In this document: in pieces, positions 28,152-63,337 of the stretch
Layout of the letters: the number at the start of each line of letters is the position of its first letter
Position numbering within the stretch: the first letter of the stretch is position 1
Assembly: GCA_012103255.1 (NCBI GenBank)
Contig: WLXD01000001.1
Coordinates: forward strand, 248,001-312,000
Direction of reading: 5' to 3'
From: Acidobacteriota bacterium
GTDB lineage: Bacteria > Acidobacteriota > UBA890 > WLXD01
DNA length: 64,000 nt
Translations under genes and position numbers: made by a program
Notes under the pieces: model-generated
Seen by the model: only the letters and a program-made list of their open reading frames with translations
Database searches by the model: none
What the model was told of the DNA's origin: nothing

Positions 28152-30578
28152 CTAGTCGCTGCGCAGCGCCTCGATCGGGTCGACTGCAGCCGCGCGTCGG
28201 GCAGGCATCCATGCGCCGAAGAGACCTGCCGCGATCAGAGCGAGCGCAACCATCACGAAGGTCGGCGCGTCGCTCGATTCCACGCCATAGAGCAGGCCCG
28301 CAATCGACTGCGCCACGAACACGGCTCCGGCGAAGCCGGCCACAACCCCTCCCAGAGTGAGCAGTACACCCTCACGTAGGACGAGATCCTGCACGCGGCG
28401 GCGCTCCGCTCCGAGCGCGACCCTGATGCCCATCTCGCGTTTGCGCTGACTCACCGAGAAGGCGAGGACGCCGGCAATGCCGACGATCGAGATCGCCAAA
28501 GCGATCGCCGCAAACGCGCCAAACAAGGTGGCGTTCAGCCGTTGCGGTGCAACGGCTTCGTCGCGCAGTTCGGCGAGCGTTCGGATCTCCTCGATGGGCC
28601 GGTCGGCATCGAGGCCGCGAAGTGTCTGCACCACGCCCGGTGTCACGCTGGCCGCGTCGCCGTTCGTTCGAACGAGAACCGTATTGCCCGGAAAGCCCTG
28701 GTATTGCGACGTGTAGAAGGCATGCACGCCGTCCGCCGTGACCTCGGTAAGCCGCGCGTCCGCCACGACCCCCACGACACGTAGGGGATCGGATGGCACG
28801 GGTCCGAACGCGTACGAGATCTGACGCCCCAGAGAGCTCTCATCGCCGAAGTGATAGGCGGCCATCGACGCGCTCAGCACAGCCACCTGTTCGGTGTCTT
28901 CGTTGTCCTGCTCCGTGAAGACGCGGCCGCTGAGGAGCTCGATGCCAAGCGTTTCGAAGTATTGCGGCGTGACGGCCTCGAAGACAGTTGGCGTTGGTGC
29001 TTGAAACTCGTCCGGCACAACCGCATCCGGGAAGAAGCGCACCGGGAATGTCTGCGCACCACCGAGCGGCGACGATCCCACCACGGTCACGCCATCTACG
29101 TTTGGCTGGCTGCCGATCTGCGCCACAACATCGCGCGAGAACTGGCGCTGGGCCGATAGATCGAACTCGCCGAAGGTAGGGACCTCCAGCGAGAGCACGT
29201 TGGACATGTCGAAACCGGTGTCCACCGAATACAGGTTCACGAGCGTCCTGAGCAGAAGCCCGGTCGCAACGAGCAGCATGAAGCACACGGCAACCTGACC
29301 TACGACGAGCAGCCTCTGCACAAGGCGCCGTTGTCGCCCCGCCGTGGCGTGCCCACCGCCGGCCGAGAGTGACTCCGAGAGTCGTGATTCCGCGCCCGCC
29401 GAAGGGATCAGTCCAAACAGCAGCGCGATCCCGACGGCCACGGCCAAGGTGAAGAGCAGGACGGTGAAGTCCATCCCGATCTCGCCAGTGCGGGCTGTGA
29501 ATCGAGCGGCGTACCGAGTCAGTACGTCTAGCCCGAGGTATGCCAGAGCAAGCCCCAGGGCTGAGCCCGAGAGGGCGAGAATCGCACTCTCCACGACCAT
29601 CAGGCGACGCACTTGCCAGCCGCTGGCGCCAAGCGAGCGCCGAACAGCGATCTCGCGATCTCGCCGCACAAGACGCGTGAGGGTCAGGTTCGCGACGTTG
29701 GCGCAGGCGATCATGAGAACGCTGAAGGCCGTGCCGAAGAGGATCCAGAGCTGCTGTCGCGCGCCGGCGACCAACTGGTCGCGCCACGGAGTCAACTGGA
29801 AGGCCATCTCGAGTTCCGCCGGGTACGCGTCCGGATAGTCGGTGTGCAGACGTTCGGCGATGCGCGAAGCCTCGTCTTGAGCGGCGGCCAACGTGACGCC
29901 ATGAGCGAGTCGACCGAAGATTTCGGTCATCCGATGGGCTCGGTCGTCCTGCATCGTGGCGCTGTTGTAGTGGTCGTTGGTGCTGTAGTTGGCGTACAGA
30001 TCGAGTTCACGTTCCGTCGCGTAGTGGGCGCCGGGTTCTAGCACGCCGACGATCGTTGCTGTGAGCGCGGTCAGATCCAGCGCCTGCCCGACCACCGCGG
30101 GATCGGCATCGAAGCGACTCTGCCAATAGGCGTGGCTGAGAACGACGGTCGGCGGAGCATTTCGGGCGCGATCGGAGTCGGCCAACAGTCGACCGTGCAA
30201 AGGCCGCATGCCGAGCACGTCGAAGAAGTTTGCGGTCACGAGGCCTACGGTTACACGATGGGGCTCGCCTCGGCCCAGAACGCTGAAGGTCCAATCGCCA
30301 TACTCGACCACTTCGTCCAACGCGTCGGCCTGCGTGCGGAGATCGGCGGTCTCCACGAACGAGAAGTACGAATCCTCAACGCCGATGCCGAGTGCGGGCT
30401 GGGTGATCCGCACAATTCGGTCGGCGTCCGGGTACGGCAGCGGACGCAGCAACACGCCATTGACCACCGAGAAGATGGCCGTATTGGCACCAATGCCCAG
30501 GCCGAGCGTGACGATGAACGTCAGCGCGAAGCCCCAGTCGCGTGTCAACGCGCGCAGCGCGTAGCGAAAGTCACCCAT
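28152..30578 (-). CDS. ADOP-family duplicated FtsX/MacB-type permease 3
   Basis: An 808-aa duplicated ATPase-less permease, the third in the window. It starts directly at DFRYALRALTRDWGF and the first helix ILTLGLGIGANTAIFSVVNG-like, with no prefix domain. It repeats the periplasmic MacB domain and FtsX blocks (LMIACANVANLTLTRLV, REIAVRRSLGASGWQVRRL) and ends WMPARRAAAVDPIEALRSD. It lies 44 bases downstream of the tetraheme NapB-like gene on the same strand, so it might be read from the nitrogen cluster, though its job there is unknown. No PadR gene is near it. Confidence 0.82.
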   Translation of the reverse strand: MGDFRYALRALTRDWGFALTFIVTLGLGIGANTAIFSVVNGVLLRPLPYPDADRIVRITQPALGIGVEDSYFSFVETADLRTQADALDEVVEYGDWTFSVLGRGEPHRVTVGLVTANFFDVLGMRPLHGRLLADSDRARNAPPTVVLSHAYWQSRFDADPAVVGQALDLTALTATIVGVLEPGAHYATERELDLYANYSTNDHYNSATMQDDRAHRMTEIFGRLAHGVTLAAAQDEASRIAERLHTDYPDAYPAELEMAFQLTPWRDQLVAGARQQLWILFGTAFSVLMIACANVANLTLTRLVRRDREIAVRRSLGASGWQVRRLMVVESAILALSGSALGLALAYLGLDVLTRYAARFTARTGEIGMDFTVLLFTLAVAVGIALLFGLIPSAGAESRLSESLSAGGGHATAGRQRRLVQRLLVVGQVAVCFMLLVATGLLLRTLVNLYSVDTGFDMSNVLSLEVPTFGEFDLSAQRQFSRDVVAQIGSQPNVDGVTVVGSSPLGGAQTFPVRFFPDAVVPDEFQAPTPTVFEAVTPQYFETLGIELLSGRVFTEQDNEDTEQVAVLSASMAAYHFGDESSLGRQISYAFGPVPSDPLRVVGVVADARLTEVTADGVHAFYTSQYQGFPGNTVLVRTNGDAASVTPGVVQTLRGLDADRPIEEIRTLAELRDEAVAPQRLNATLFGAFAAIALAISIVGIAGVLAFSVSQRKREMGIRVALGAERRRVQDLVLREGVLLTLGGVVAGFAGAVFVAQSIAGLLYGVESSDAPTFVMVALALIAAGLFGAWMPARRAAAVDPIEALRSD

Positions 30579-30622
30579 GCCGGGAGTCTATCGGGCCCTC
30601 CGCCCGCTGTCGGCGCCGCGCT

Positions 30623-31195
30623 CTAGGAACCTGGACCGAATTCGCTGCGAAAGACTTCGGTAGTCTCCTGCGGCACGTGACACTGGCTGCAGCGCGCGCG
30701 CTCTGGGTGACTCGTCCGGATCGCTTCACGCGCCGCCGGACCCGCATGGCACGCGGAACAGTTCTCGCGCATCAGAAGCTTGTGCGGCATCACGGGCGGC
30801 GCCATCTCGTTGAGTCGCCGACCTCGACGTAGGTCCTGACGAATCCCGACGAACGAATTCTCGGCGAACACGTCTGTGGTCTTTGGGAACACGTGACACT
30901 GGGTACAGCGGCTGGTAGCGCTCATCCCGGCCGTCAACTCATGCGGCGAGGGCGGCGCGAAGCCAACGTCGGGAACTTCCATGCCTTGTGCGTTGTGGCA
31001 CTGCACGCAACTCATCCCGAAGTTCTCGTGCGGCGCGACCGGCGGCGCGCCATCGTAGGCCCGCCGTGCGGCACGTTCAGTCGCGGGGCTGCGCGGATCG
31101 TCGGCGCCAACGCAGGCGCCAACGCCGAAGGCGATCACCGCCGTGGCGACAGCCGCCGCCATCGACCTCAGATCCGTTCGATGCGAACCGCGCAT
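30623..31195 (-). CDS. Tetraheme NapB-like cytochrome c (duplicated diheme module)
   Basis: A 190-aa exported cytochrome, electron donor candidate for the NapA encoded upstream. Four CxxCH sites lie at residues 63-67, 97-101, 146-150 and 169-173. Standard NapB has two. The protein consists of two similar halves, each with APPVxPH, a first CxxCH, then RCxQCHVxxxTTxVF. The N-terminus is a probable lipoprotein signal (GVGAC at 24-28). The ATG at 31195 overlaps the end of napA by 28 bases and gives the signal its needed positive charge; a second ATG (31162) has none. It is the last gene of the nitrogen cluster. Confidence 0.75.
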   Translation of the reverse strand: MRGSHRTDLRSMAAAVATAVIAFGVGACVGADDPRSPATERAARRAYDGAPPVAPHENFGMSCVQCHNAQGMEVPDVGFAPPSPHELTAGMSATSRCTQCHVFPKTTDVFAENSFVGIRQDLRRGRRLNEMAPPVMPHKLLMRENCSACHAGPAAREAIRTSHPERARCSQCHVPQETTEVFRSEFGPGS

Positions 31196-33543
31196 TTCTT
31201 GTAGTCCGGTTCCTTACTGATGTTGTCCATCGCATCGAGCGTCAACACATTCACCAGCCGGTTCTCGTCGAAGAAGGGCACGAAGACTCGGCCCTGAGGT
31301 GGCTTGCCGCGCCCATCAACCACGACCGTCAGTTCGAGTTCTCCACGGCGAGAAGACACCCGGGCCCGGTCGCCATCGTTGAAACCCAGCTCCTGGGCGT
31401 CCACGCGATTCAGTTCGACGTAGGCCTCGGGGACGGCCTGATGGAGCTGCGGCACGCGCCGCGTCATCGAACCGGAATGCCAGTGTTCGAGAACCCGCCC
31501 GGTCGTCAGCCACAGCGGATAGTCCTCGTCAGGAACCTCGGCAGGCGGGTGGTACGGGCGCAGCCAGACTGCCGCCCTCTCTCCGTTGGCCTTGGCCTTG
31601 TAGAAGTGCACGCCCTCGTCCTTCTCAACGTACGGATCGTGGCCAGCCGCGTACCGATAGCGTGTCTCCTGGCCGTCGACCACCGGCCAGAGCATGCCGC
31701 GCGTTCCCTGCAACTGTTCGTAGGATGCGAGGTCCTTGCCGATGCCAAGTCCAAATTGTCGGTATTCCTCGAACATGGCCTCATGCCAGTTGTCCTCGGG
31801 CCACGGGAACAGGTCACCGTGGCCCATGCGGCGGGCCACTTCCATAATCTGCCAGGCGTCCTCGCGGGCCTCGCCGGGCGGCTCGACAAGCTGGTTCCAC
31901 TGCTGCGTTCGACGCTCGGAGTTGCCGAACACGCCCTCGCGTTCCACCCACGCCGCGGAGGGCAGAATCAGGTCCGCCTCGGCGGTCGTCGGCGTCGGAT
32001 AGATGTCGGACACGACAATGAAGCGATCGTCGTCGGGCTCACGGTGCATGCGGTTGAGCGCCGGCATGGTCACCCACGGGTTGGTCACCTGGATCCACAT
32101 CACCTTCACGTCGCCGCGCTCGAGTGCGCGGAACATGTCGACGGCGTGGTAACCCGGCACTCCGTTCAGGGTCCCCGGTTCAAGGTTCCAGATGTCCTCG
32201 GCCTTCGCCCGGTGCTCAGGGTTGTTGACCACCATGTCAGCGGGTAGCCGGTTTGACAGCGTCCCGACCTCTCGCGCTGTCCCGCACGCAGACGGCTGGC
32301 CCGTCAGGCTGAATGGATTGGCACCCGGTCGACTGATCTTGCCGGTGACCAGGTGCAGATCGGTGATCAGGTTGTTCATCCAGGTGCCGCGCGTGTGCTG
32401 ATTCACGCCCATGCACCAGAGGCTCACTGTGCCCCGCCCTGAGTCCCCGTACATCGCAGCGAGCGCTTCGATCTGTGCGGCTGACACGCCGCAGACCTCG
32501 CTCACATGCTCCGGTGTGTAGTGCGCCAGGAACTCCTCCATCTCGGCAAGCGAGGACGCCGACGCCTCGTCCTTGAATCCATAGCGCGGCGCCTCGCCAT
32601 CGGCCGGATCCGTAGAGGTTCCATCTTCGCCCCAACAGCCGAACCCGATGTCCTCGATGTCTTCTGTGCCGCGTTTGAACACGACGTTCTCTTCCATGAA
32701 CGCGCGGTCCAGTTTGTCGTCACGGAACAGCACGTGGAGGATCGCGTTGGCCAGGGCCAGGTCCGAGCCCGGGACGATCTCGAGATACATGTCCGCGTAG
32801 TCGGACGTGGGTGTGCGCCGCGTCGCGATATCGACGATGCGAACCCCGGGATTGGTGCGCTTGTTCTCGAGGATCCGAGAGAACAACACCGGGTGCATCT
32901 CGGCCATGTTGTTGCCCCAGAGGATGAAGTCGTCGCCGGCTTCGAAGTCCTCGTAGCACCCCATCGGTTCGTCGCTCTGGAACTGCGTCATGAAGCCCAT
33001 CACGGCGGACGCCATGCAGAGCCGCGCGTTCGGATCGACGTTGTTCGAACCGAGGCCGGCACGGAAGAACTTCGACGCCGCGTAGCCGTCGTGCACACCC
33101 CACTGCCCGGAGCCATACATGGCCACCGACTCGGGGCCGTGGGCGTCGACCGCATCCTGGAGCTTCTCGGCAATCAGATCCAGCGCCTCATCCCACGGAA
33201 TCTGCCGCCAGTCATCACCGTCACGCAGCATCGGATGCGTGAGTCGCTCCTCCCCGTACAGGAAAGCGGGTAAGTGGTAACCCTTCACGCAGAGCAGGCC
33301 GCGGTTCACGGGGCTCGCTTCGTCGCCGCGCACCGCCATCACCTGGCCGTCGGCCACGCCGACTTCCACACCGCACCCCGTGCCGCAGAAGCGACACGGC
33401 GCCTTGTTCCAATCGAGGTCGGCATCATTGATAGCCCGCTGGCCATCGACGATGTCGCCGGCGCGCTCCTGGTCGCCGCACGAGAAGGCAGCAACCCCAG
33501 CGCTGGCCAGCCCGGCAGCCTTGAACAGGTCCCGGCGTTTCAT
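31168..33543 (-). CDS. napA: Periplasmic nitrate reductase catalytic subunit
   Basis: A 791-aa molybdopterin enzyme that reduces nitrate to nitrite. Residues 1-20 are a Tat signal with KRRDLFK. The [4Fe-4S] cluster is bound by Cys 50, 53, 57 and 85 (CRFCGTGC and GLLCVKG), Lys 88 links cluster and cofactor, and the molybdenum ligand is Cys 176 in ARLCMASAVMGF. The NapA signatures DEPMGCYEDFEAGDDF, GNNMAEMHPVLFSRI and the C-terminal DNISKEPDYKKCAVRI are all present, so the family is secure; related formate dehydrogenases lack these. It is 30-40 residues shorter than typical NapA. The signal ends AAFSCG, a weak lipobox-like sequence. No napC, napD, napF or napG is in the cluster; the chaperone role of NapD must be elsewhere or absent. 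Confidence 0.92.
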   Translation of the reverse strand: MKRRDLFKAAGLASAGVAAFSCGDQERAGDIVDGQRAINDADLDWNKAPCRFCGTGCGVEVGVADGQVMAVRGDEASPVNRGLLCVKGYHLPAFLYGEERLTHPMLRDGDDWRQIPWDEALDLIAEKLQDAVDAHGPESVAMYGSGQWGVHDGYAASKFFRAGLGSNNVDPNARLCMASAVMGFMTQFQSDEPMGCYEDFEAGDDFILWGNNMAEMHPVLFSRILENKRTNPGVRIVDIATRRTPTSDYADMYLEIVPGSDLALANAILHVLFRDDKLDRAFMEENVVFKRGTEDIEDIGFGCWGEDGTSTDPADGEAPRYGFKDEASASSLAEMEEFLAHYTPEHVSEVCGVSAAQIEALAAMYGDSGRGTVSLWCMGVNQHTRGTWMNNLITDLHLVTGKISRPGANPFSLTGQPSACGTAREVGTLSNRLPADMVVNNPEHRAKAEDIWNLEPGTLNGVPGYHAVDMFRALERGDVKVMWIQVTNPWVTMPALNRMHREPDDDRFIVVSDIYPTPTTAEADLILPSAAWVEREGVFGNSERRTQQWNQLVEPPGEAREDAWQIMEVARRMGHGDLFPWPEDNWHEAMFEEYRQFGLGIGKDLASYEQLQGTRGMLWPVVDGQETRYRYAAGHDPYVEKDEGVHFYKAKANGERAAVWLRPYHPPAEVPDEDYPLWLTTGRVLEHWHSGSMTRRVPQLHQAVPEAYVELNRVDAQELGFNDGDRARVSSRRGELELTVVVDGRGKPPQGRVFVPFFDENRLVNVLTLDAMDNISKEPDYKKCAVRIERI

Positions 33544-33571
33544 GTGTTCACTCCGTGTCGCTCGGACTCAG

Positions 33572-35218
33572 CTAGAAGTTGTTGCCGTCGCGTTCGCCGC
33601 CCTGTCCATAGCGACGCTCCATTTCCTCGCGAATGCGCGCTGACTGCTCCGCCGCACCCTCTTCAAACCACACGTGCTCAGGACGACTGAGAATGTCGTT
33701 GATCACCCGATTGATCTCGGTGCGCGCTGCGCCGCCGGCGTGATCAGCCATCTCGCGCGCCTGCGGTATCAGCTCCATGTAGAAGCGTTCGGCGACCTCG
33801 TACATGCCATGCCAGTGCGCGTAGTCGGGGGCCATCATCGACGCACCGTGACGCGCCCGCCGCCCCTCGTGGTGCCACAGGTAGAACCAGGTCCACTCGA
33901 TTTCCTCGTCGAACTGCGTCGGCGAGCGAGTCCCGGTGTCGGCGAGAACGGCCATGATCGCCTGACCCGGCTTCGCGAACTTCTCGTTGTAGAGCACGAC
34001 GAAATCGTCGTACTGGGCATAGAAGGAGTTCACGTAGTCGGGCGAATGGCAATGCGAGCACACATCCTTCATGCGGTTGCGCTTGTCTTCCCAGCTATCA
34101 ACCGTGAGCGCGCGGCGCTCATCCGGGTCATCCGTCTTCACGATCGCGTGGTTGATGTCGGTGTCCATCGCCACCGACACGGGCGGGCGGTTGGTCCACG
34201 AAATGCGTTCGCCTGGATCGTGAGTGATCTTTCCGCCGTTACGCAGGTTGCCGGACATGTGGCATGTCGCGCAGGTCGGTGCGGCGGAATAGTCCGCGCC
34301 AAGCACCCAATCGGTGGCGTTCAGGTTCATGTCGTCCTTGAGGTCGCGATAAGCGATCCCGTGCTTGGACTCCTCGTAGATCTCCTTTTGCGGGTGATCT
34401 GGACCGAGATGGCACTGGCCGCAGTTCTCGGGCTGGCGCGCGCGGCGCGGCGAGAAGTCGTGGCGACTGTGGCAGGCGGTGCAGGAGCCGGCGGACCCGT
34501 CGAGATTCAGGCGGCCGATACCCGTGTTGGGCCACGTGCCGGTGTCGAACATCGGGCGCCCGTTGGCGTCCTTCACAATCGACGCGAGGATTGCCTGGTT
34601 GGTCGGCACGCCGTTCTCGTCGGGGGCGAGTTCGTCGACCGTGATCAGGCTACCGTCGGTACTCTGCAGCGCCACCTTCGCGCCGTGGCACTGCTGGCAA
34701 CCCGACTGCGCGCTCGCGAGGCCGTTCACCATGTCGAACGAACGCCCGGGAGTCGGCGAGTGTGGGTTGAAGTCTTCGCGCGAGCCTTCGACGGTCTCGG
34801 CTAGGAAGTTGTCGAGCGATGCCAGGATATTGCCGGCCTTCGAGTGGTGGCTGGCCTCGAACTCCGCCGACTCCTCGACGTGACAGCGCGAACAATCGCG
34901 CGGTGTCACGATCGTGGCAATCGACTGCCCGTAGTGCTCGAAGGCATCGGGCTCGACCGATTCGGCGGTATGACACTCGACACAGCCGACACCCTTCTCG
35001 GCGTGGGTGCTGCCCTCCCAGTGATCCACGATCCCGGGGTTCGCCTGCGCGTGACAGTCCACGCAGGCCACGGAACTCGCGGGCGCGCTCACGCTCGCCG
35101 GGCGCAACCCGGCCTCCTCGGCGCGCCGCGTCGTTTCGAGCCACTGCACGAGGACCAGCGAGACCAGGAAAAGGCCTCCCATCGCCCCGATGATCCAGCG
35201 TTTGGTTTCAAGTGTCAT
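33572..35218 (-). CDS. Membrane-anchored octaheme cytochrome, hydroxylamine-oxidoreductase-like
   Basis: A 548-aa protein with an N-terminal membrane helix (8-26) and eight CxxCH haem sites at 52-56, 79-83, 109-113, 174-178, 246-250, 266-270, 316-320 and 387-391. The sequence after the last haem (WHHEGRRARHGASMMAPDYAHWHGMYEV in pieces) is the HAO signature. In bacterial HAO a tyrosine near here crosslinks to the P460 haem and is tied to oxidative activity. Tyr 466 and Tyr 473 both survive, but which corresponds needs alignment. The family includes hydroxylamine oxidases and nitrite-reducing forms; direction is open. It sits between cytochrome b and NapA, so it may receive quinol electrons. 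An AAGGAAG ribosome site precedes the ATG at 35218; the longer frame upstream is unsupported. Confidence 0.85.
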   Translation of the reverse strand: MTLETKRWIIGAMGGLFLVSLVLVQWLETTRRAEEAGLRPASVSAPASSVACVDCHAQANPGIVDHWEGSTHAEKGVGCVECHTAESVEPDAFEHYGQSIATIVTPRDCSRCHVEESAEFEASHHSKAGNILASLDNFLAETVEGSREDFNPHSPTPGRSFDMVNGLASAQSGCQQCHGAKVALQSTDGSLITVDELAPDENGVPTNQAILASIVKDANGRPMFDTGTWPNTGIGRLNLDGSAGSCTACHSRHDFSPRRARQPENCGQCHLGPDHPQKEIYEESKHGIAYRDLKDDMNLNATDWVLGADYSAAPTCATCHMSGNLRNGGKITHDPGERISWTNRPPVSVAMDTDINHAIVKTDDPDERRALTVDSWEDKRNRMKDVCSHCHSPDYVNSFYAQYDDFVVLYNEKFAKPGQAIMAVLADTGTRSPTQFDEEIEWTWFYLWHHEGRRARHGASMMAPDYAHWHGMYEVAERFYMELIPQAREMADHAGGAARTEINRVINDILSRPEHVWFEEGAAEQSARIREEMERRYGQGGERDGNNF

Positions 35219-35249
35219 GGCAGCTTCCTTTGGCAGCGAGTTGCGCAGG

Positions 35250-36299
35250 TCAGTGAGCGACCAACGCTTCCCACATCGTGAGCGCGATGATTGCAAGAAC
35301 GCCGACGATGCCGATCCAGACACTCGCTTCCTGGAAGCGAGTGCGCTTGCGGATCTGCGCATCGATGAATGGCCAGGTGAACATGATGAAAACGACGAAG
35401 CCGGTGGACAGGATCGCGAATGTTCCCGGGAACAACTTCAACCAGCGGAACACCACATAGAAAAACCACTCGGGCTTGATCACTTCGGGAGTAGTGAGCG
35501 GGTCTGCTTCGGGACCCATCGATGCCGGGAAGATCGTGGCCAGCGCCGACAGCAGGATCATCAAGAACAGACCGAGCATGAGCTCGGTGTACATGTGATC
35601 CGGAAAGAAGCTGAAGGTCTTGGGCTTCGACTCGTCCTCGTCCTTGAACTTGAACTCGGTGACGCCCTGCAGGCGGATGATCATGATGTGAACGACGAGC
35701 AGGCCGATCAGCGCGACGGGGAGCACCGCCGCGTGGAGCACGAAGAACCGCGACAGCGTGCGCGAGTTGTACGTCTCGCCGGCCAGCATCAGGTTCTTGA
35801 CGAAACCGCCGATCACGGGCACCGAGTCCGCCATGTTGGCGCCCACCGTCGCACCCCAGAAACTGAGCTGCTCGAACACCAGGCTGTAGCCGGTGAACCC
35901 GAGCGTCAGCGTGCAGAGGAGCAGGAACATCCCGATGATCCAGTTGATCTCCCGGGGCTTCCGGTAGGCGCCCGTGAAGTACACGCGCATCTGGTGCAGC
36001 ACCACGGCGGCGATCATCAGCGTGGCCGCCCACTTGTGGACGCTACGGAGATACCAACCGAATGCCGCTTCCTCCGTGATGTAGCGAACGGAGGCGTACG
36101 CCGAGCCGGTTGAGGTCTCGTAGTAGAAGGCCAGCAGGATGCCCGTGATGATCTGGATGACGAAGAGGTATGCGGGGGTGCCACCCAGCGCGAACCACCA
36201 ACGCTTCATGTGGTTCGGAACCGGTTCGTTGGTCATCTCGCGGATCACTTCCGGCGAAACTGGCAAACAATCCTGGAACCACTGGGCGATTGCGCTCAT
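35250..36299 (-). CDS. Cytochrome b of a Rieske/b complex (fused b6 and subunit-IV type)
   Basis: A 349-aa membrane protein. The haem histidines are 88 and 102 in the first pair and 189 and 204 in the second. Spacing of 14 then 15 is the b6-type pattern. The Qo motif PEW is at 276-278 (VIKPEWFFY), and a C-terminal part after residue 235 matches subunit IV of b6f complexes, so one chain replaces two. It would oxidise quinol and reduce the Rieske protein and a high-potential acceptor. Its start overlaps the Rieske stop (ATGA). No cytochrome c1 or f is encoded, so the multiheme proteins downstream are the natural electron acceptors. Confidence 0.9.
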   Translation of the reverse strand: MSAIAQWFQDCLPVSPEVIREMTNEPVPNHMKRWWFALGGTPAYLFVIQIITGILLAFYYETSTGSAYASVRYITEEAAFGWYLRSVHKWAATLMIAAVVLHQMRVYFTGAYRKPREINWIIGMFLLLCTLTLGFTGYSLVFEQLSFWGATVGANMADSVPVIGGFVKNLMLAGETYNSRTLSRFFVLHAAVLPVALIGLLVVHIMIIRLQGVTEFKFKDEDESKPKTFSFFPDHMYTELMLGLFLMILLSALATIFPASMGPEADPLTTPEVIKPEWFFYVVFRWLKLFPGTFAILSTGFVVFIMFTWPFIDAQIRKRTRFQEASVWIGIVGVLAIIALTMWEALVAH

Positions 36300-36910
36300 C
36301 CAAGCTCCCCATCGCGGGGCGGACGCGCCAGCGGCGACAGACAGGGGTCGTGTCCCGGCGCGCTCGCGCAATCATCGTCGATCACCCGGCCTGAAGACGC
36401 CGCGTCCGCCACGAGTCGCGCGGTGGGCACCCGGATAAACAGCAGATTGCCGTCCACGCGCAGCGGGTACCTCGGCAGCGTCTGGCCAGCATCGCCGGGA
36501 GGTCCCGCGGTGCCGACACCCGCCGAATCAAAGACTCCGTTGTGGCACGGACAGAAGTAGCGCTGGTTGGCGTCTTCCCAGTGCACCTGGCAGCCCAGAT
36601 GCGGACAGGTACTCGAGAGCGCGATGAAGTCCTCCGCGACGCCATCGCGTGCACGCCGCGTGATGTTTACCGTTTCGCCACCCGGAGCCTGGTAGCGAAG
36701 GGAATCACCGACACCAAGCCGGGCCAGGTCTGCGACGAACTGCCAGCTCCCTGTGTCGGGTCGTGCTGGATACAGGTAGCGGGCAGCAACCGCTCCGAAC
36801 GCCCCGTAGCCACCAACCAGACCGGCCGCCATGGCGAAGTTCGAGGCTTGACCCAGAAATCCCCGCCGACCTTGAACCGGCCCGTCATCGTGGCTGGAAT
36901 CGTCAGCCAT
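36296..36910 (-). CDS. Rieske iron-sulfur protein of the quinol-oxidising complex
   Basis: A 204-aa protein with a Tat-type twin arginine (QGRRGFLG), a single membrane helix (about 22-45) and a Rieske [2Fe-2S] cluster bound by Cys 102, His 104, Cys 120 and His 123, with the disulphide cysteines at 107 and 122 (CPHLGC, CPCHNG). The start at 36910 has GGAG 8 bases before it; a GTG three codons earlier sits too close to that site. Transcribed with cytochrome b, octaheme cytochrome, napA and the NapB-like gene. The 99-base gap before it likely carries its own promoter or an mRNA processing site; I could find no firm motif. Confidence 0.88.
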   Translation of the reverse strand: MADDSSHDDGPVQGRRGFLGQASNFAMAAGLVGGYGAFGAVAARYLYPARPDTGSWQFVADLARLGVGDSLRYQAPGGETVNITRRARDGVAEDFIALSSTCPHLGCQVHWEDANQRYFCPCHNGVFDSAGVGTAGPPGDAGQTLPRYPLRVDGNLLFIRVPTARLVADAASSGRVIDDDCASAPGHDPCLSPLARPPRDGELG

Positions 36911-37009
36911 TGCGTCCACTCCGCCTTAGGGGTTCAGCGAGATATCGCGAGGTCGTCATCCTACCGAAAATCGGCATCAAAAACGATAGGGGTGTCTGTT
37001 TATCCCGAA

Positions 37010-38308
37010 TCAAAATGAATACTGCGTCCAGACCCAGATCTTCGTGGTGTCCGACGAGAACTCGTCGGCGCTGTAGACGCCGCCCTTCAGACCGAAGAGC
37101 TGACTCCACGCCGTCCGATACGTAACCTGGAAGTCGAACTCGCTGCCGTAGCGCGAATTGCCCGTCGTCGCGCCGAAGTCGTGGTAGCGCAACTGCCAGC
37201 GCACCGGGCCGAGTGGGCCGTCGAGCTTCACGTGGAAGTCGGCCAAACCGTTGGTGGGCGTGCTGAGAAATTTGTCGACCCACCCGTTGAACGCGTGGTT
37301 CGTTCCGAGCACGAACTGGAACTGGCCGTCCTCTGGGCTTCCACCGATGCGCTCGACGCCGACTCTCAGCGTGAACCCGCGGTAGCCAAGGCCGCCCTCG
37401 ACATGCAGATAGTCGGCGTTGATCCGCACGGGGTTGTCGCCGGCGTCGGTCTGCGTGGCGTACTCGAACTCGTAGTGCAGCCTGAGGTCCCCGGTGGGTC
37501 GGGAGCCCTTCACCTCGGCGCCCACCGTGTTCCGCGACAGCCCCGCGAACTCCAGCTGGTCGTAGCGCAGCAGATACGCGTAGCCAGTGATCGCGAACAG
37601 GCCCTCGAAGTCGTAGCTAGCGTTGATCAGATGTGACGAAGTATCGATCTTGTCGCGGAAGATCCGGTGCGCCCGGTTCAGGTACGCATACTTCGCCGTG
37701 AAGTTATCGATACTCCGGTTGGTCGCCGTGATCGCGTCGTGCGACTGCCAGTGCTGGCGCCAGCCCACCGCGCCAACGTGCCGCTGATCGTCGTAGTTGA
37801 TGACCTGACGACCGAGACGAACTCCCGTCTCGCCACCCGCGTAGCCCACGTAGGCCTGCAACATCTCCGTACCAGGTGGGTCGGCGATCACGGGATAGTC
37901 AGTCACGCCGTTGCCGCTGTCTCCGAAGCCTTTGTTGTTGTGGTCATCGCCCCACCCGACGTCAGTCACGTTCTCGGCCTGCAAAAAGACGCGGAATCCA
38001 CGATAACGCTGCGTGCCGTAGCTCAGGGCGGTGCGCAGTGTCGACGCCTTGCCGTTGTTGGCGAACACAGCTTCGTCAACGAACTCGTAGCGATACCGGA
38101 GATCGACCGCAGCATCCCCGCCACTCAACGCATCCGCGAAGGAGATCGAGCTCTCCTCCTGGACGTTCCTCTTCGTTGCCGCTTCTTCGACGGTTGCCGC
38201 CTCGGGCTTCGGCTTGTCCTCCGCCTTTCCGGCGTCTTGCTGCGCCAGCGCAGCGGGGGTTAACCCGAGCGACAAGATCACTGCAACGATCCACGTTTTC
38301 TGCTTCAC
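37010..38308 (-). CDS. Outer-membrane beta-barrel porin (alginate-export-like)
   Basis: A 432-aa exported protein with a signal peptide (MKQKTWIVAVILSLGLTPAALA cut before QQD), a Lys/Glu-rich linker and then alternating strands ending with an aromatic residue (TTKIWVWTQYSF), the mark of an outer-membrane barrel. Segments such as FVLGTNHAFNGWVDKF and YVGYAGGETGVRLGRQVI match the AlgE-like porin family. It leads the nitrogen cluster and likely lets nitrate or other anions into the periplasm; specificity is inferred. It is divergent from feoAB. No clear ribosome site was noted beyond GAGGCGAG upstream. Confidence 0.8.
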   Translation of the reverse strand: MKQKTWIVAVILSLGLTPAALAQQDAGKAEDKPKPEAATVEEAATKRNVQEESSISFADALSGGDAAVDLRYRYEFVDEAVFANNGKASTLRTALSYGTQRYRGFRVFLQAENVTDVGWGDDHNNKGFGDSGNGVTDYPVIADPPGTEMLQAYVGYAGGETGVRLGRQVINYDDQRHVGAVGWRQHWQSHDAITATNRSIDNFTAKYAYLNRAHRIFRDKIDTSSHLINASYDFEGLFAITGYAYLLRYDQLEFAGLSRNTVGAEVKGSRPTGDLRLHYEFEYATQTDAGDNPVRINADYLHVEGGLGYRGFTLRVGVERIGGSPEDGQFQFVLGTNHAFNGWVDKFLSTPTNGLADFHVKLDGPLGPVRWQLRYHDFGATTGNSRYGSEFDFQVTYRTAWSQLFGLKGGVYSADEFSSDTTKIWVWTQYSF

Positions 38309-38411: not shown

Positions 38412-38440
38412 TTGACCCAAATTTAGCCACGGCTAAAAAT
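38412..38440 (+). promoter_or_regulatory. feoAB promoter and palindromic operator
   Basis: A perfect 16-bp palindrome TTTAGCC-AC-GGCTAAA (38422-38437) lies over the spacer and -10 region of a candidate promoter (TTGACC at 38412 and TAAAAA at 38434, spacing 16). The palindrome resembles DtxR/MntR-type metal-regulator boxes more than a Fur box. Repression by a metal-bound regulator when iron is plentiful fits the genes downstream. The regulator itself is not in the window. Confidence 0.5.
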
Positions 38441-59235: not shown

Positions 59236-60063
59236 CTACTGCTCTGCAGGCGCCTCAGCTTCCGCGGGAGGCTGTGGCATCACCGCCGCCACCTGCTCGG
59301 CCATCCACGCATCGAAGTCCTGCTGCGAGTGCACCGTGTAGAAGCCCTTCATCCGGTAGTGACCGAGGCCGCACAGCTGCGCACAGGTGATCTCCCAGCA
59401 CGTCTTCGTTGCGTTGCAGGCCGGGAACTGCGCCTCCGGCGGCGTGACCATGGTGGCCTTGAAGTGCACCGGGATCATCAACCCGGGGACCACATCCTGC
59501 TTCACGCGCATCTGCTGCAGCGCGAAGCTGTGGATCACGTCCTTCGACGTCAGGAGCACCGTGATATCGCGATCAACCGGCAGGTGTAGCTGGTTGATCG
59601 ACACCACGTCGTCCACGCCGTAGGGATCCGTGCGATCCAACCCGATCGTATTGGTCGCCGACATCAGGTCGATTGACGTCGCACCAAAAACACCGTCCGG
59701 GCCGGCGTAGTGCGAGTTCCACGCGAACTGTTCTGCGATCACACGCACCTGTAGCGCGGAGTCCGGGTCGGCAGGAGGCTCAACCCAGCTGGCCCACGCC
59801 GGGATCGCGAAGAAGACCAGCAGCACAACCTCGAAAACGGCAATGCCGACCTCGATGTACTGCGAGACATGGCTCTTGGCACCCTCGTAGCTAGCTCGCG
59901 GGTTCGCTGACGCGCGGAACCGGAAGAGAACGTAGAGAAAGTAGAGCGCCCAGCCCACGAAGAGCACGAGCATGAGCCAATGCACGAGAGCGGTCAGCTC
60001 GTCGAGATACGGGCCGTGCTCGGAGGCGTTGATTGGCAACCAGTTCTGCAGGAAAGACAGCAT
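59236..60063 (-). CDS. coxB: Cytochrome c oxidase subunit II
   Basis: A 275-aa subunit with two membrane helices (about 24-46 and 68-90) and a CuA domain. The CuA ligands are Cys 227 and Cys 231, His 178 and His 235, with Met 238 (CAQLCGLGHYRM). The usual aromatic patch before it reads EQFAWNSHYAG. It accepts electrons from cytochrome c. It has no fused cytochrome c domain. Last structural gene of the operon, unusual as coxB often comes first. Confidence 0.93.
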   Translation of the reverse strand: MLSFLQNWLPINASEHGPYLDELTALVHWLMLVLFVGWALYFLYVLFRFRASANPRASYEGAKSHVSQYIEVGIAVFEVVLLVFFAIPAWASWVEPPADPDSALQVRVIAEQFAWNSHYAGPDGVFGATSIDLMSATNTIGLDRTDPYGVDDVVSINQLHLPVDRDITVLLTSKDVIHSFALQQMRVKQDVVPGLMIPVHFKATMVTPPEAQFPACNATKTCWEITCAQLCGLGHYRMKGFYTVHSQQDFDAWMAEQVAAVMPQPPAEAEAPAEQ

Positions 60064-60324
60064 CTATTCCCCGCCCATGTTTGAAGCTTCGGGAGATTCG
60101 TTGTTGTCGGTGTCGCGCTTGGCCCGGCGCATCATGCCCACGAACATGACGCCGAAACAAACCTGTAGGCCGAAGACGACGCCGAGCATGGTCAGCACGC
60201 CATTGTTGACGCCACGAGCGGCTGGGCCGTCGATGTCGCCATAGCAAACAGGACAAGCGTCCGCGACCTGCGGCACAAGCAGCGCGGCAGCGACGACCGT
60301 CAGGAAAAGCACGCGTGGGCGCAT
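60064..60324 (-). CDS. Small exported or membrane protein in the oxidase operon (CPVCYG)
   Basis: An 86-aa protein with a signal peptide or first helix (VLFLTVVAAALLVPQVADA), a CPVCYGDIDG motif just after it, and a second helix (VLTMLGVVFGLQVCFGVMFVGM). It could hold a metal or redox pair at the membrane surface and may help CuA or CuB assembly; this is inference. It abuts coxB with no spacer and overlaps the previous small gene by one base. Confidence 0.6.
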   Translation of the reverse strand: MRPRVLFLTVVAAALLVPQVADACPVCYGDIDGPAARGVNNGVLTMLGVVFGLQVCFGVMFVGMMRRAKRDTDNNESPEASNMGGE

Positions 60325-60527
60325 CAGATGCCCAGCTCCTTGGCCTTACGCAGGAAGCGCAGGCAATAGACCACCAGAGTCACACCGCTCCCGTAGAACA
60401 AGACCGCAATGGTGAGCGCGGTGCCATCCCCGGCCATCCGGTACTGCTGCACACCCCACGCACCGACGAGGAACGACAGGACGATCGAGGCGCAGATGAA
60501 AACGACGTGGAACGACTTCAGGCCCAT
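60324..60527 (-). CDS. Small two-helix membrane protein in the oxidase operon
   Basis: A 67-aa protein with two hydrophobic helices (VVFICASIVLSFLVGAWGV and LTIAVLFYGSGVTLVVYCLRFL) and a basic tail. No family assignment. Its tight position between subunit IV and the CPVCYG gene suggests an accessory part of the oxidase. Confidence 0.6.
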   Translation of the reverse strand: MGLKSFHVVFICASIVLSFLVGAWGVQQYRMAGDGTALTIAVLFYGSGVTLVVYCLRFLRKAKELGI

Positions 60528-60528
60528 G

Positions 60529-60870
60529 TCAGTGATGCTCCTCAGCGCCTTCCTGCGCGACCTCGGTGGACGTCCCGATGTGGTCGCTGACCGTGGCGGC
60601 CGGAAGGAACATCAACACCGCGAAGAACAGCATCGTCAAAGCCAGGATCCAGTAGATCGTGAAGCGCTCGTCGAGAAGATGCATGAAGTAGCCCGCCACC
60701 AGCGTGCCCTTGATGCTGGCGACGATCATCGCCACGACCACCGCTCCTGCGATCGAAAGATCGAGGTAGCTGACGGCTACGGTAACAACGGTGAGTCCCG
60801 CCAGGGCGGCAAACACCATCATGTATTTCTTGATCTCTGCCTGGATTGCCTCGGGACTATCGTGACCCAT
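60529..60870 (-). CDS. Cytochrome c oxidase subunit IV family protein
   Basis: A 113-aa protein with three helices in the pattern of bacterial subunit IV (MMVFAALAGLTVVTVAVSY, AMIVASIKGTLVAGYFMHL, WILALTMLFFAVLMFLPA). The middle KGTLVAGYFMHL motif is diagnostic. It stabilises the oxidase core. It follows coxC by 9 bases. Confidence 0.85.
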   Translation of the reverse strand: MGHDSPEAIQAEIKKYMMVFAALAGLTVVTVAVSYLDLSIAGAVVVAMIVASIKGTLVAGYFMHLLDERFTIYWILALTMLFFAVLMFLPAATVSDHIGTSTEVAQEGAEEHH

Positions 60871-60879
60871 GATTTCCCC

Positions 60880-61464
60880 CTAGAGCAGGTAGAGACTCGG
60901 GAACAGGAAGATCCAGACCAGATCGACGAAATGCCAGTAGAGACCGAAGGTCTCGACCCGGTTGGTGAACTGCTCGGGCTTCGTCTTCCACATCTTCGCG
61001 CCCGGCCCCAAGAGGTAGCCGAGTACGACGATGCCGCCGATCACGTGAAGGCCATGCAGGCCAGTCATCGTGAAGTAGACCGCCATGTAGTTGTCGGTCC
61101 AGGGGAAGAGACCCAGCTCGAACTCCGCGTTGTACTCGATCCCCTTCACCACCATGAAGCCGAATGAGAGCAACAAAGTGAGGATGCCGTACTTGCGGAA
61201 CTGCGCGAAGTTCTTCATCCGCAGTCCGGCCCAAGCCAGGATCACCGTCACCGACGAGGAGATCAGGATCATGGTGTTGAGCGTGGCCATCGGCACGTTC
61301 ATCGGATGCTGGACCCAGTTCGGGTTCCCCGTGCGTAGCAGCACGTAGGACGAGAACAGGGCGCCGAACAGCATCACCTCGGAGGCAAGGAACAGCCAGA
61401 TGCCGAGCTTCGCGTTGTAGAGGCCGGTGTCGGGCCTGGGTTCGACGGTATACGGGATCTCCAT
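60880..61464 (-). CDS. coxC: Cytochrome c oxidase subunit III
   Basis: A 194-aa protein with five to six helices, typical of the shorter bacterial form: LGIWLFLASEVMLFGALFSSY, YFTMTGLHGLHVIGG and ETFGLYWHFVDLVWIFLFP. The helix with GLHGLHV and the WHFVDLVW motif mark subunit III. It binds lipids and keeps subunit I active. It starts 3 bases after coxA. Confidence 0.93.
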   Translation of the reverse strand: MEIPYTVEPRPDTGLYNAKLGIWLFLASEVMLFGALFSSYVLLRTGNPNWVQHPMNVPMATLNTMILISSSVTVILAWAGLRMKNFAQFRKYGILTLLLSFGFMVVKGIEYNAEFELGLFPWTDNYMAVYFTMTGLHGLHVIGGIVVLGYLLGPGAKMWKTKPEQFTNRVETFGLYWHFVDLVWIFLFPSLYLL

Positions 61465-61467
61465 CGA

Positions 61468-63255
61468 TCAGCCCTCCTGCTTCGGCGCAGTCTGGGGGAG
61501 GAAGCTGTCCTCCGCGCCGGGCGCACTGTAGTCGTAGGGTCCGCGGTGGACCGTCGGTATCACCTTGAAGTTTCCATGTCCCATCGGCGGCGACGTGGTT
61601 GCGCACATGTCGAGAGTGGTCGCATCCCAGGGGTTATCGCCGGCTTCCTTGCCGCGGAAGATGCTCCATACGAAGTTGACGATGAAGAACAACTGGGCAG
61701 CGAGCAGCCCGAAGGCGGCATACGACATGAACGAGTTCCAGTGCATCACCGGGGCCGCGTGCGAATACTGCGCCCCGCCGTCATAGAGCCGGCGCGAGAC
61801 GCCTGCGAGACCCGTCAGGAACATCGGGAAGAAGATCCCGTTGATGAAGATGAGCGACGAGAAGAAGTGTGCCTTTCCGAGCGCTTCACTCATCCGCCGG
61901 CCGGTGATCTTCGGGAACCAGTAGTAGATCCCGGCGAAGATGCCGAAGATGGTCCCCGGCGCCACGACGTAGTGGAAATGCCCGATGACGTAGTAGGTGT
62001 CGTGTAGGTGGATGTCGGTCGGCGCGAGGCCCAGCGGCAGCCCGGTCAGACCACCGATGCCGAACATCGGCAGGAACGCCAGCGCAAACAGCATCGGCGT
62101 GTTGAAGCGGATCGAGCCGCCCCACAGCGAGATCAGCAAGGCCGTGAGGATGACCACCGATGGGATCGAGATGATCATCGTGGTGGTCTGGAAGAATGCG
62201 CTGATGACCGTACCCATGCCCGTCATGAACATGTGGTGCGCCCACACGACGAAGGACATGAAGCCGAGGAAGATGCCGGAGTACACGAGCGCCTTGTAGC
62301 CCCAGAGCGGCTTGCGCGTGTTGTTGGCGATCACCTCGGCGACGATGCCGAACGCGGGCAGAATCAGAACGTAGACCTCGGGATGGGCGAGGAACCAGAA
62401 CAGGTGCTGCCAGAGAAGCACCGAGCCCCCGCCCGCATATTCCAGAATCTCACCGGAGACGTACAACCCGCTCGGCATGAAGAAACTGGTGCCAGCGACG
62501 CGATCCATCAACTGCATCACGCCCGCTGCTTCCAGCGGCGGGAAGGCGAGCACTAGCAGGAACGACGTCACCAGCTGCGCCCAGATGAAGTAGGGCAGTC
62601 GCATCCAGGTCATGCCCGGAGCGCGCAACTGGAAGATCGTCACGATGATGTTCATCGAGCCGAGCAGCGACGATGTGATCAGGAAGATCATCCCGATCAG
62701 CCATGCGGTCTGCCCGGACGTGGCGATAATCGACAGCGGCGCGTAAGAGGTCCAGCCAGAATTCGCTGCACCGCCAGGCATGAAGAAGCTGGCCAGCATC
62801 ACGATGCCGCCGACGAAGTACACCCAGTAGCTCATCATGTTGAGCTTCGGGAACGCCATGTCGGGCGCGCCGATCTGCAGCGGCACGACGTAGTTGCCGA
62901 ACGCACCGACGATCATCGGAACGACCGCCAGGAAGACCATGATGGTGCCGTGCATGGCGCCAAGCTGGTTATAAAACTCGGGCAGCATGATGCCGCCTGG
63001 TGCGTTCGCGTCGCCAAGCCAACCGCCGATCAGTGGGATCGGCGCGCCCGGCGAGGCCAGTTGCCAGCGCATGAGGATCATTAGGCAGAAGCCGAACATC
63101 AAGAAGCAGAGCGCTGTCAGGCCGTACTGGATCCCGATGACCTTGTGGTCGACCGAGAAGATGTACTTCCGGATGAAGCCCTCTTCGTGGTGTTCGTCGT
63201 GCCCGTGATCCGCGTGTCCGTGGTCGTCCACGGAATGTTCCTCAGAACCGCTCAT
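61468..63255 (-). CDS. coxA: Cytochrome c oxidase subunit I (haem-copper oxidase)
   Basis: A 595-aa haem-copper subunit with 12 helices. Haem ligands lie in GAMHGTIM (His 102) and HFHYV (His 426 and 428). CuB ligands are His 291 (HPEVY, with Tyr 295 as crosslink) and His 340-341 (WAHHMF). Asp 132 (PDMAF) of the D channel is present. The Lys of the K channel, normally in IPTGIK, appears replaced: the aligned text is IPSVVI, with Ile 369. The N-terminal 25 residues are His/Asp-rich (DDHGHADHGHDEHH), maybe a metal-binding tail. Start at 63255. It leads the operon. Confidence 0.93.
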   Translation of the reverse strand: MSGSEEHSVDDHGHADHGHDEHHEEGFIRKYIFSVDHKVIGIQYGLTALCFLMFGFCLMILMRWQLASPGAPIPLIGGWLGDANAPGGIMLPEFYNQLGAMHGTIMVFLAVVPMIVGAFGNYVVPLQIGAPDMAFPKLNMMSYWVYFVGGIVMLASFFMPGGAANSGWTSYAPLSIIATSGQTAWLIGMIFLITSSLLGSMNIIVTIFQLRAPGMTWMRLPYFIWAQLVTSFLLVLAFPPLEAAGVMQLMDRVAGTSFFMPSGLYVSGEILEYAGGGSVLLWQHLFWFLAHPEVYVLILPAFGIVAEVIANNTRKPLWGYKALVYSGIFLGFMSFVVWAHHMFMTGMGTVISAFFQTTTMIISIPSVVILTALLISLWGGSIRFNTPMLFALAFLPMFGIGGLTGLPLGLAPTDIHLHDTYYVIGHFHYVVAPGTIFGIFAGIYYWFPKITGRRMSEALGKAHFFSSLIFINGIFFPMFLTGLAGVSRRLYDGGAQYSHAAPVMHWNSFMSYAAFGLLAAQLFFIVNFVWSIFRGKEAGDNPWDATTLDMCATTSPPMGHGNFKVIPTVHRGPYDYSAPGAEDSFLPQTAPKQEG

Positions 63256-63307
63256 GTAGGGATTGCACCTCGGCGTACAGACCAATGTCGAGATTTTGGG
63301 CGCACGG

Positions 63308-63337
63308 AGCATACGACGGCGACCGCAACGCAGGCAA
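63308..63337 (-). promoter_or_regulatory. Possible promoter of the oxidase operon
   Basis: On the minus strand, TTGCCT (63337-63332) and TATGCT (63313-63308) are spaced by 18 bases and lie 53 bases before the coxA start. These are fair but imperfect -35 and -10 hexamers. Confidence 0.3.

Follow-up and report, generated by a model that had tools for sequence, protein, structure and literature searches.

A candidate electrogenic nitrate-ammonification gene cluster with a Rieske/cytochrome b complex, an octaheme cytochrome c and periplasmic nitrate reductase in an Acidobacteriota bacterium

Within a 64-kb stretch of genomic DNA from an Acidobacteriota bacterium (hereafter, the window), we found a six-gene cluster that we interpret, with moderate confidence, as encoding an electrogenic nitrate-ammonification chain composed of a Rieske/b6-type complex, an octaheme cytochrome c (OCC), a tetraheme cytochrome with two NapB-like halves (double-NapB) and the nitrate reductase NapA.

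Results

A compact cluster of six genes

All six genes between 30623 and 38308 are complete and lie on the minus strand in a single direction. They are listed here from porin to tetraheme cytochrome, followed by the segment formed by the last two.

37010-38308, minus strand: outer-membrane porin, an alginate-export/Opr-like beta barrel with a signal peptide (PF13372, E = 1e-8; weak match to the Opr porin subfamily)
36296-36910, minus strand: Rieske [2Fe-2S] subunit (PF00355) with a Tat-type signal, RRGFLG; motifs surveyed in 69 homologues
35250-36299, minus strand: one-chain b6-type cytochrome b, 349 aa (PF00033 and PF00032; best PDB match, cytochrome b6)
33572-35218, minus strand: OCC, 548 aa, of the HAO fold family (Multi-haem_cyto, PF13447; eight CxxCH motifs)
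31168-33543, minus strand: NapA, the Mo-bisMGD/[4Fe-4S] catalytic subunit of periplasmic nitrate reductase (NCBIfam equivalogs and PDB matches)
30623-31195, minus strand: tetraheme c-type cytochrome made of two NapB-like diheme halves (NapB PF03892, NapB structures and alignment)
30609-33590, minus strand: cassette with NapA and the tetraheme gene, absent at the same place in the same-genus genome G001 (locus L037; blastn)

The likely starts, judged from the sequence, are GTG 38308 for the porin, ATG 36910 or GTG 36919 for the Rieske protein, ATG 36299 for cytochrome b (overlapping the Rieske stop as ATGA), ATG 35218 for the OCC, ATG 33543 for NapA and ATG 31195 for the tetraheme cytochrome, which overlaps the NapA stop by 28 nt. 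From porin to tetraheme gene, the intergenic distances are about 90-100, -4, 31, 28 and -28 nt. Coordinates and domain searches thus agree with a preliminary description of this DNA, which had placed a porin, a Rieske protein, a fused b6-type cytochrome b, an octaheme cytochrome, NapA and a tetraheme cytochrome on one strand with overlaps or short gaps. The host genome measures 4.8 Mb and is 95% complete. Rfam and tRNA scans of the 64-kb window gave no matches.

Two observations concern the surroundings of the cluster. A perfect 16-bp palindrome, TTTAGCCGTGGCTAAA, lies at 38422-38437, between divergent feo genes on the plus strand and the porin/nap genes on the minus strand. It looks like a putative DtxR/MntR-type metal-regulator site, and because of this resemblance iron supply and the heme-rich nap cluster may be under common control. 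In addition, cytochrome c oxidase genes occupy 59236-63312 on the minus strand, with subunit I at 61468-63312, subunit II at 59236-60063 and the small subunits in the interval; the bacterium is probably also aerobic.

NapA, a double-NapB tetraheme cytochrome and a porin

The NapA gene product passed both curated equivalog cut-offs (NF010055, 965.3 against 904 bits; TIGR01706, 940.7 against 930.6 bits), and its best PDB matches are NapA structures. The Tat signal MKRRDLFK, the [4Fe-4S] motif CRFCGTGCG and the Mo-ligating cysteine in ARLCMAS are kept across the family. By these markers the protein is a genuine NapA, with nitrate reductase activity predicted. The Tat signal of the main NapA clade ends in AAFSC or AAYSC, and the cysteine is retained in most members; NapA may thus be a Tat-exported lipoprotein.

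In the tetraheme cytochrome, alignment revealed that the pattern APPxxPH...CxxCH...QCHV occurs twice. The NapB Pfam domain PF03892 was detected in 13 of 14 members of its family, and its top profile matches are NapB structures. Compared with NapB, the diheme domain is present but duplicated, giving four hemes. A lipobox-type signal, VGAC, is found in the window protein and a lipobox-like signal in nearly all family members. The tetraheme cytochrome is the probable electron donor to NapA. Its AlphaFold model (pLDDT 60, pTM 0.39) was too poor for use.

The porin probably serves as the entry path for nitrate and nitrite. A porin with 60% identity sits at the same position in the same-genus loci L036 and L037, and porin genes adjoin Rieske/b-OCC genes in other loci too.

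A Rieske/cytochrome b complex in the place of NapC

The cluster contains the elements of a bc/b6f-type complex, namely Rieske cluster ligands, two His pairs and a PEWY-type Qo motif. Its Rieske protein carries CPHLGC and CPCHNGVFD, without the Ser and Tyr of high-potential Rieske proteins. As established by Rieske mutagenesis, these two residues raise the potential of the cluster, so their absence from CPCHNGVFD points to a low-potential, menaquinol-type protein. Cytochrome b combines a b6-like N-terminal part and a subunit-IV-like C-terminal part in one chain, with His pairs of b6-type spacing (H-X13-H and H-X14-H) and the Qo motif PEWF; motif counts showed Ala at the heme-ci Cys position in the window protein and Cys in many relatives. 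A second Rieske/cytochrome b pair is encoded elsewhere in the host genome (G000, contig C8, near 164019-165149; loci L004 and L168) with the high-potential-type motif CPCHGSGFY, and the genome therefore contains two different Rieske/b complexes.

No NapC/NirT gene is present from the porin to the permease that follows the cluster, where the tetraheme cytochrome gave the only such signal, a match both weak and partial. This upholds the earlier proposal that a Rieske/b6-type quinol oxidase takes the place of NapC. The cluster likewise has no cytochrome c1 or f gene, and the OCC occupies that position. On the NapC/NrfH route, periplasmic nitrate reduction and nitrite ammonification save no energy at the quinol step. 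An NrfH/NapC-type protein is the partner of the same OCC family on Desulfosarcina and Desulfobaculum plasmids. Because these plasmid OCCs have an NrfH/NapC-type quinol oxidase as partner, Rieske/b can be placed in the quinol-oxidase slot. One reductase family thus seems to have two alternative quinol-oxidase modules, of which only Rieske/b could be electrogenic. On the mobilizable Desulfosarcina ovata plasmid (L153, 7233-13593), the OCC and NrfH/NapC-type genes have norR and a nitric oxide reductase gene as neighbors.

The octaheme cytochrome has a predicted active site of the reductive type

All eight heme motifs of the OCC are CxxCH, with no CxxCK and no match to PF02335 (Cytochrom_C552), which sets it apart from NrfA and ONR. 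Against the HDH equivalog it scored 71.6 bits, far below the cut-off of 900. Of the solved structures, the Ignicoccus OCC (4qo5) is nearest; next come the Kuenenia reducing HAO-like complex (6h5l) and, after it, HAO. Foldseek returned the same order with an AlphaFold model (pLDDT 60.5, pTM 0.51) that was used for family ranking only, at TM values of about 0.3 for a model without hemes.

We located the HAO cross-link tyrosine (Tyr467 in N. europaea numbering) by way of the Ruegeria pomeroyi HAO, a plasmid copy with haoB beside the gene. This protein can be aligned almost end to end with N. europaea HAO, in which Tyr467 lies within PGGWTYTEG. The corresponding OCC residue is His468, anchored by conserved Pro464 and Gly471; this mapping depends on one single-residue gap in that stretch. 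Among 114 OCC homologues the position is His in 77 and Gln in 33 (His or Gln in 110 of 114). The HAO Asp267/His268 pair is retained as Asp274/His275, HAO Tyr334 is replaced by Arg344, and Asp274, His275 and Arg344, which surround the catalytic heme, are almost invariant among homologues. An Arg near the catalytic heme would suit an anionic substrate.

Members of the HAO family without the tyrosine act reductively (PMC8940962). Because the cross-link Tyr is absent and this rule applies, the OCC is most likely a reductase, with nitrite as the most likely substrate. It combines the HAO-family fold, eight CxxCH motifs and the missing Tyr of the reductive eHao/HAOr type. The NapC/NrfH-type partner gene of reverse-HURM is lacking, and Rieske/cytochrome b genes stand in its place. 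Hydroxylamine oxidation by the OCC was rejected on account of His or Gln at the Tyr467 position; the earlier suggestion that it might be coupled to nitrate respiration was accordingly not borne out.

The OCC begins with an uncleaved-looking N-terminal membrane anchor (MTLETKR...). Across loci, anchored OCCs go with an upstream cytochrome b and OCCs without cytochrome b are mostly unanchored (77, 4, 2 and 17 loci in the four cells of this comparison). A soluble, signal-peptide OCC 62% identical to that of the window occurs without Rieske/b in Anaeromyxobacter sp. PSR-1 (L126, 9668-11482). Anaeromyxobacter is a cultivated genus and would be a convenient organism for testing the activity of the enzyme.

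In the 95% complete host genome, no NrfA or NirK scored above cut-off and Hcp was not found. No convincing NirS was detected there either, the only signal being a borderline cytochrome d1-type hit to a 678-aa frame, part of which resembles a peptidase. Of the nitrite reductases tested for, this leaves the OCC as sole candidate.

Rieske/b-OCC gene order is conserved across phyla

A search of 396 Acidobacteriota genomes and a scan of GTDB species genomes yielded the 114 OCC sequences. Synteny was assessed by tblastn, and rows with in-frame stops were left out of several alignments; three entries clearly shared by both collections were discarded as duplicates, and further ones may remain. The order Rieske > cytochrome b > OCC is kept around most of the 114 OCCs, in carriers labeled as Acidobacteriota, Gemmatimonadota, Planctomycetota, Krumholzibacteriota, Myxococcota, KSB1, Bacteroidota, Chlorobiota and Nitrospinaceae. 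The claim that the genes form a joint system had made co-occurrence in other genomes one of its tests, and it came through this check. Downstream sequence of 1.5 kb or more was available for 76 Rieske/b-OCC loci; in 26 of them NapA comes next, and the tetraheme gene usually comes after it. Because the other 50 have no adjacent NapA, a two-step chain from nitrate through nitrite is not obligatory.

Among the 396 Acidobacteriota genomes, a close OCC was found in 20, a close NapA in 20 and both in 11, where about 1 would be expected (Fisher p about 3e-11, only a guide, since the genomes are related and independence is overstated). Pairwise distances of NapA and OCC are correlated over 24 clusters (r = 0.95, 0 of 2000 permutations; r = 0.84 in the main clade), the sequences being related, and this correlation argues that the two were inherited together. 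Conserved order and correlated NapA/OCC distances indicate that the cluster genes have been passed on together as a unit.

The NapA tree unites the main group of cluster NapAs in a single clade that is fully supported and contains members of different phyla. The window NapA groups there with sequences from Gemmatimonadota and from a different family within the host's own order. NapAs at a greater distance, from Bacteroidota/Chlorobiota, KSB1 and another Acidobacteriota family, joined Rieske/b-OCC separately. Because the clade mixes phyla and these other lineages joined separately, the cluster appears to move between phyla and NapA appears to have been recruited to Rieske/b-OCC more than once.

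Several loci have other arrangements. In one variant (G318, L062, 5461-13722) Rieske/b is missing: the OCC is preceded by a 4-heme protein along with a Tat FeS protein, and followed by a 39% identical NapA and then a 4-heme NapB-like protein. Here a different module for electron input is combined with OCC and Nap. Bacteroidota/Chlorobiota clusters (L138, 14436-16635; L147, 14410-16595) contain a porin, Rieske, cytochrome b, OCC and a 37% identical NapA, together with NapG-like, NapH-like and diheme NapB-like genes, in a layout close to that of Caldithrix. In two Acidobacteriota loci (L048, 4518-6239; L050, 11765-13857), COX1- and COX2-like heme-copper oxidase subunits lie directly upstream of Rieske/b-OCC, and these could belong to an oxidase or an NO reductase that uses the same complex.

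NapA and the tetraheme gene form an optional cassette

In G001, the flanks of the cassette (window 33591-36307 and 28152-30608) meet directly at L037 7987-7990. The 2,982 bp that hold NapA and the tetraheme gene are absent, and the permease gene follows directly after the OCC. No NapA match was found anywhere in G001, which is 92% complete. In all, two genomes of the genus retain the remaining genes but gave no NapA match, one of the two being only 77% complete. Because the cassette is missing between the same flanks in G001, we regard Rieske/b/OCC as the core, and NapA and the tetraheme cytochrome as an optional front end. Since the longer order is common to several phyla, a loss in G001 is no less probable than a gain in the window genome.

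Discussion

A proposed electron-transfer chain and its alternatives

In the chain that we propose, menaquinol would be oxidized by the Rieske/b6-type complex through a Q-cycle, and electrons would pass from the Rieske cluster to the membrane-anchored OCC, which would act in the place of cytochrome c1/f. The OCC would be the terminal nitrite reductase, most likely converting nitrite to ammonium, with hydroxylamine or NO possibly arising as an intermediate or product. From the same Rieske/b complex, electrons would also reach the lipoprotein double-NapB and then NapA, which would reduce nitrate to nitrite. Rieske/b/OCC would thus be the core unit, and the NapA-tetraheme add-on would extend the chain from nitrite to nitrate. 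The direction from nitrate through nitrite to reduced nitrogen, already put forward in the preliminary description, fits the reductive-type active site. Among the points against this reading is that the host has no Hcp to deal with hydroxylamine if it is released. As a broader and more tentative proposal, to which we give somewhat less than even weight, Rieske/b6-OCC would be a dedicated and widespread electrogenic complex for the reduction of nitrite (to ammonium), its octaheme enzyme standing in for cytochrome c1/f so that DNRA saves energy at the quinol step, and NapA would have been added to it several times as a mobile cassette.

The OCC might instead be only an electron-transfer subunit, a large c1 substitute between Rieske and NapA/tetraheme, in an electrogenic nitrate reductase ending at nitrite. 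Its position between cytochrome b and NapA and its anchoring when cytochrome b is present agree with such a role, as do the multiheme subunits that stand for c1/f in Kuenenia complexes (PMC12954380). However, most Rieske/b-OCC loci lack an adjacent NapA and none was found in G001, so the OCC needs another use; the near-invariance of the residues around its catalytic heme also argues against a pure conduit, and we consider this role unlikely. Less likely still is that the OCC, like Kuenenia HAOr, reduces nitrite to NO, the chain feeding an NO reductase or nitrogen-oxide detoxification. Here the proximity to 6h5l among solved structures, the norR and NO reductase genes next to the Desulfosarcina plasmid OCC and the NO formation proposed for the Kuenenia Rieske/b-linked OCC (PMC12954380) have to be set against the closer relationship to 4qo5 than to 6h5l, the lack of an adjacent NO reductase in the 64-kb window and the ammonium formed by C. 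abyssi, which has a comparable cluster (PMC5317091).

Membership in the HAO fold family could also suggest that the OCC oxidizes hydroxylamine, its electrons driving nitrate reduction by NapA or entering the quinone pool. With His or Gln at the cross-link position, and with a quinol-oxidizing Rieske/b complex a misfit in such a scheme, we regard this as very improbable. The most improbable of the alternatives is that the genes are mere neighbors, NapA having another donor and Rieske/b-OCC serving something else; the cassette is indeed removable, but the association recurs in several NapA lineages and phyla, NapA and OCC are co-inherited and reading frames overlap.

If the favored chain, from menaquinol to nitrite and nitrate, is correct, a dedicated Rieske/b-octaheme unit would render the nitrate and nitrite steps both electrogenic. 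The unit occurs in uncultured groups of Acidobacteriota, Planctomycetota, Gemmatimonadota and Myxococcota, and surveys that use nrfA as a DNRA marker would miss nrfA-free carriers such as the window genome. The system offers a direct test of Rieske/b working with multiheme partners instead of cytochrome c1/f.

Relation to known systems

The archaeal Ignicoccus hospitalis octaheme protein (4qo5) is the nearest solved structure to the OCC by both sequence and Foldseek. It is distant, with 23% identity in the Foldseek alignment and Trp at the position of window Tyr466. Reverse-HURM in Nautilia profundicola combines Nap, an HAO-like octaheme protein, an NapC/NrfH-type protein and Hcp (PMC3701875). 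As predicted for the window, the step after Nap falls there to an HAO-family octaheme nitrite reductase; in contrast to the NapC/NrfH-type quinol oxidase of that system and the Hcp that completes ammonium formation, the window has Rieske/b and its genome no detected Hcp. Garg et al. (2018) found by qcrABC deletion that Campylobacter jejuni Nap depends on Qcr and is hence electrogenic (PMC6195509). In both cases a menaquinol Rieske/cytochrome b complex would feed NapA, a role proposed from the genes on the window side. Qcr also serves oxygen-linked respiration, whereas the Rieske/b set of the window lies within the nap-OCC cluster and is dedicated to it.

Kuenenia stuttgartiensis has Rieske/b complexes with multiheme and octaheme subunits (Kuste4569-4574), for which nitrite reduction was proposed (PMC12954380). 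A b6-like cytochrome b, a Rieske protein and an HAO-like octaheme protein come together there in one complex, as is proposed for the window. Kuenenia has in addition a putative NAD(P) oxidoreductase and one more multiheme cytochrome, its b6-like and subunit IV-like proteins are separate, and, unlike for the window, no NapA is described in that paper (PMC12954380).

Closest of all in gene content is Caldithrix abyssi, whose 2017 genome paper reported a cluster (Cabys_2556-2564) of NapM, NapA, NapGH, Rieske, cytochrome b and eHao, with neither NapC nor NrfA, in an organism that makes ammonium from nitrate (PMC5317091). In its authors' proposal, NapM and/or eHao receive electrons from Rieske/b, an arrangement that they pointed out could be electrogenic (PMC5317091). 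Comparison with the published gene list shows that both organisms cluster NapA, Rieske, cytochrome b and a Tyr-less octaheme protein without NapC, and the same route, from Rieske/b to the tetraheme and/or octaheme cytochrome, is proposed for both (PMC5317091). The joining of NapA to Rieske/b and an HAO-like protein, taken as novel in the preliminary description, has therefore been published before (PMC5317091). The two clusters differ in that C. abyssi has NapGH and NapM and no NapB, whereas the window cluster lacks NapM and NapGH and its tetraheme cytochrome is a double NapB. In the open-licence literature searched we found no description of the compact Rieske-cytochrome b-OCC-NapA-double-NapB layout, of its spread or of an anchored OCC. 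Relative to these known systems, what is new here is the compact form without NapC or NapGH, the link between OCC anchoring and Rieske/b, the apparent repeated recruitment of NapA, the insertion or deletion of the cassette and the spread over multiple phyla.
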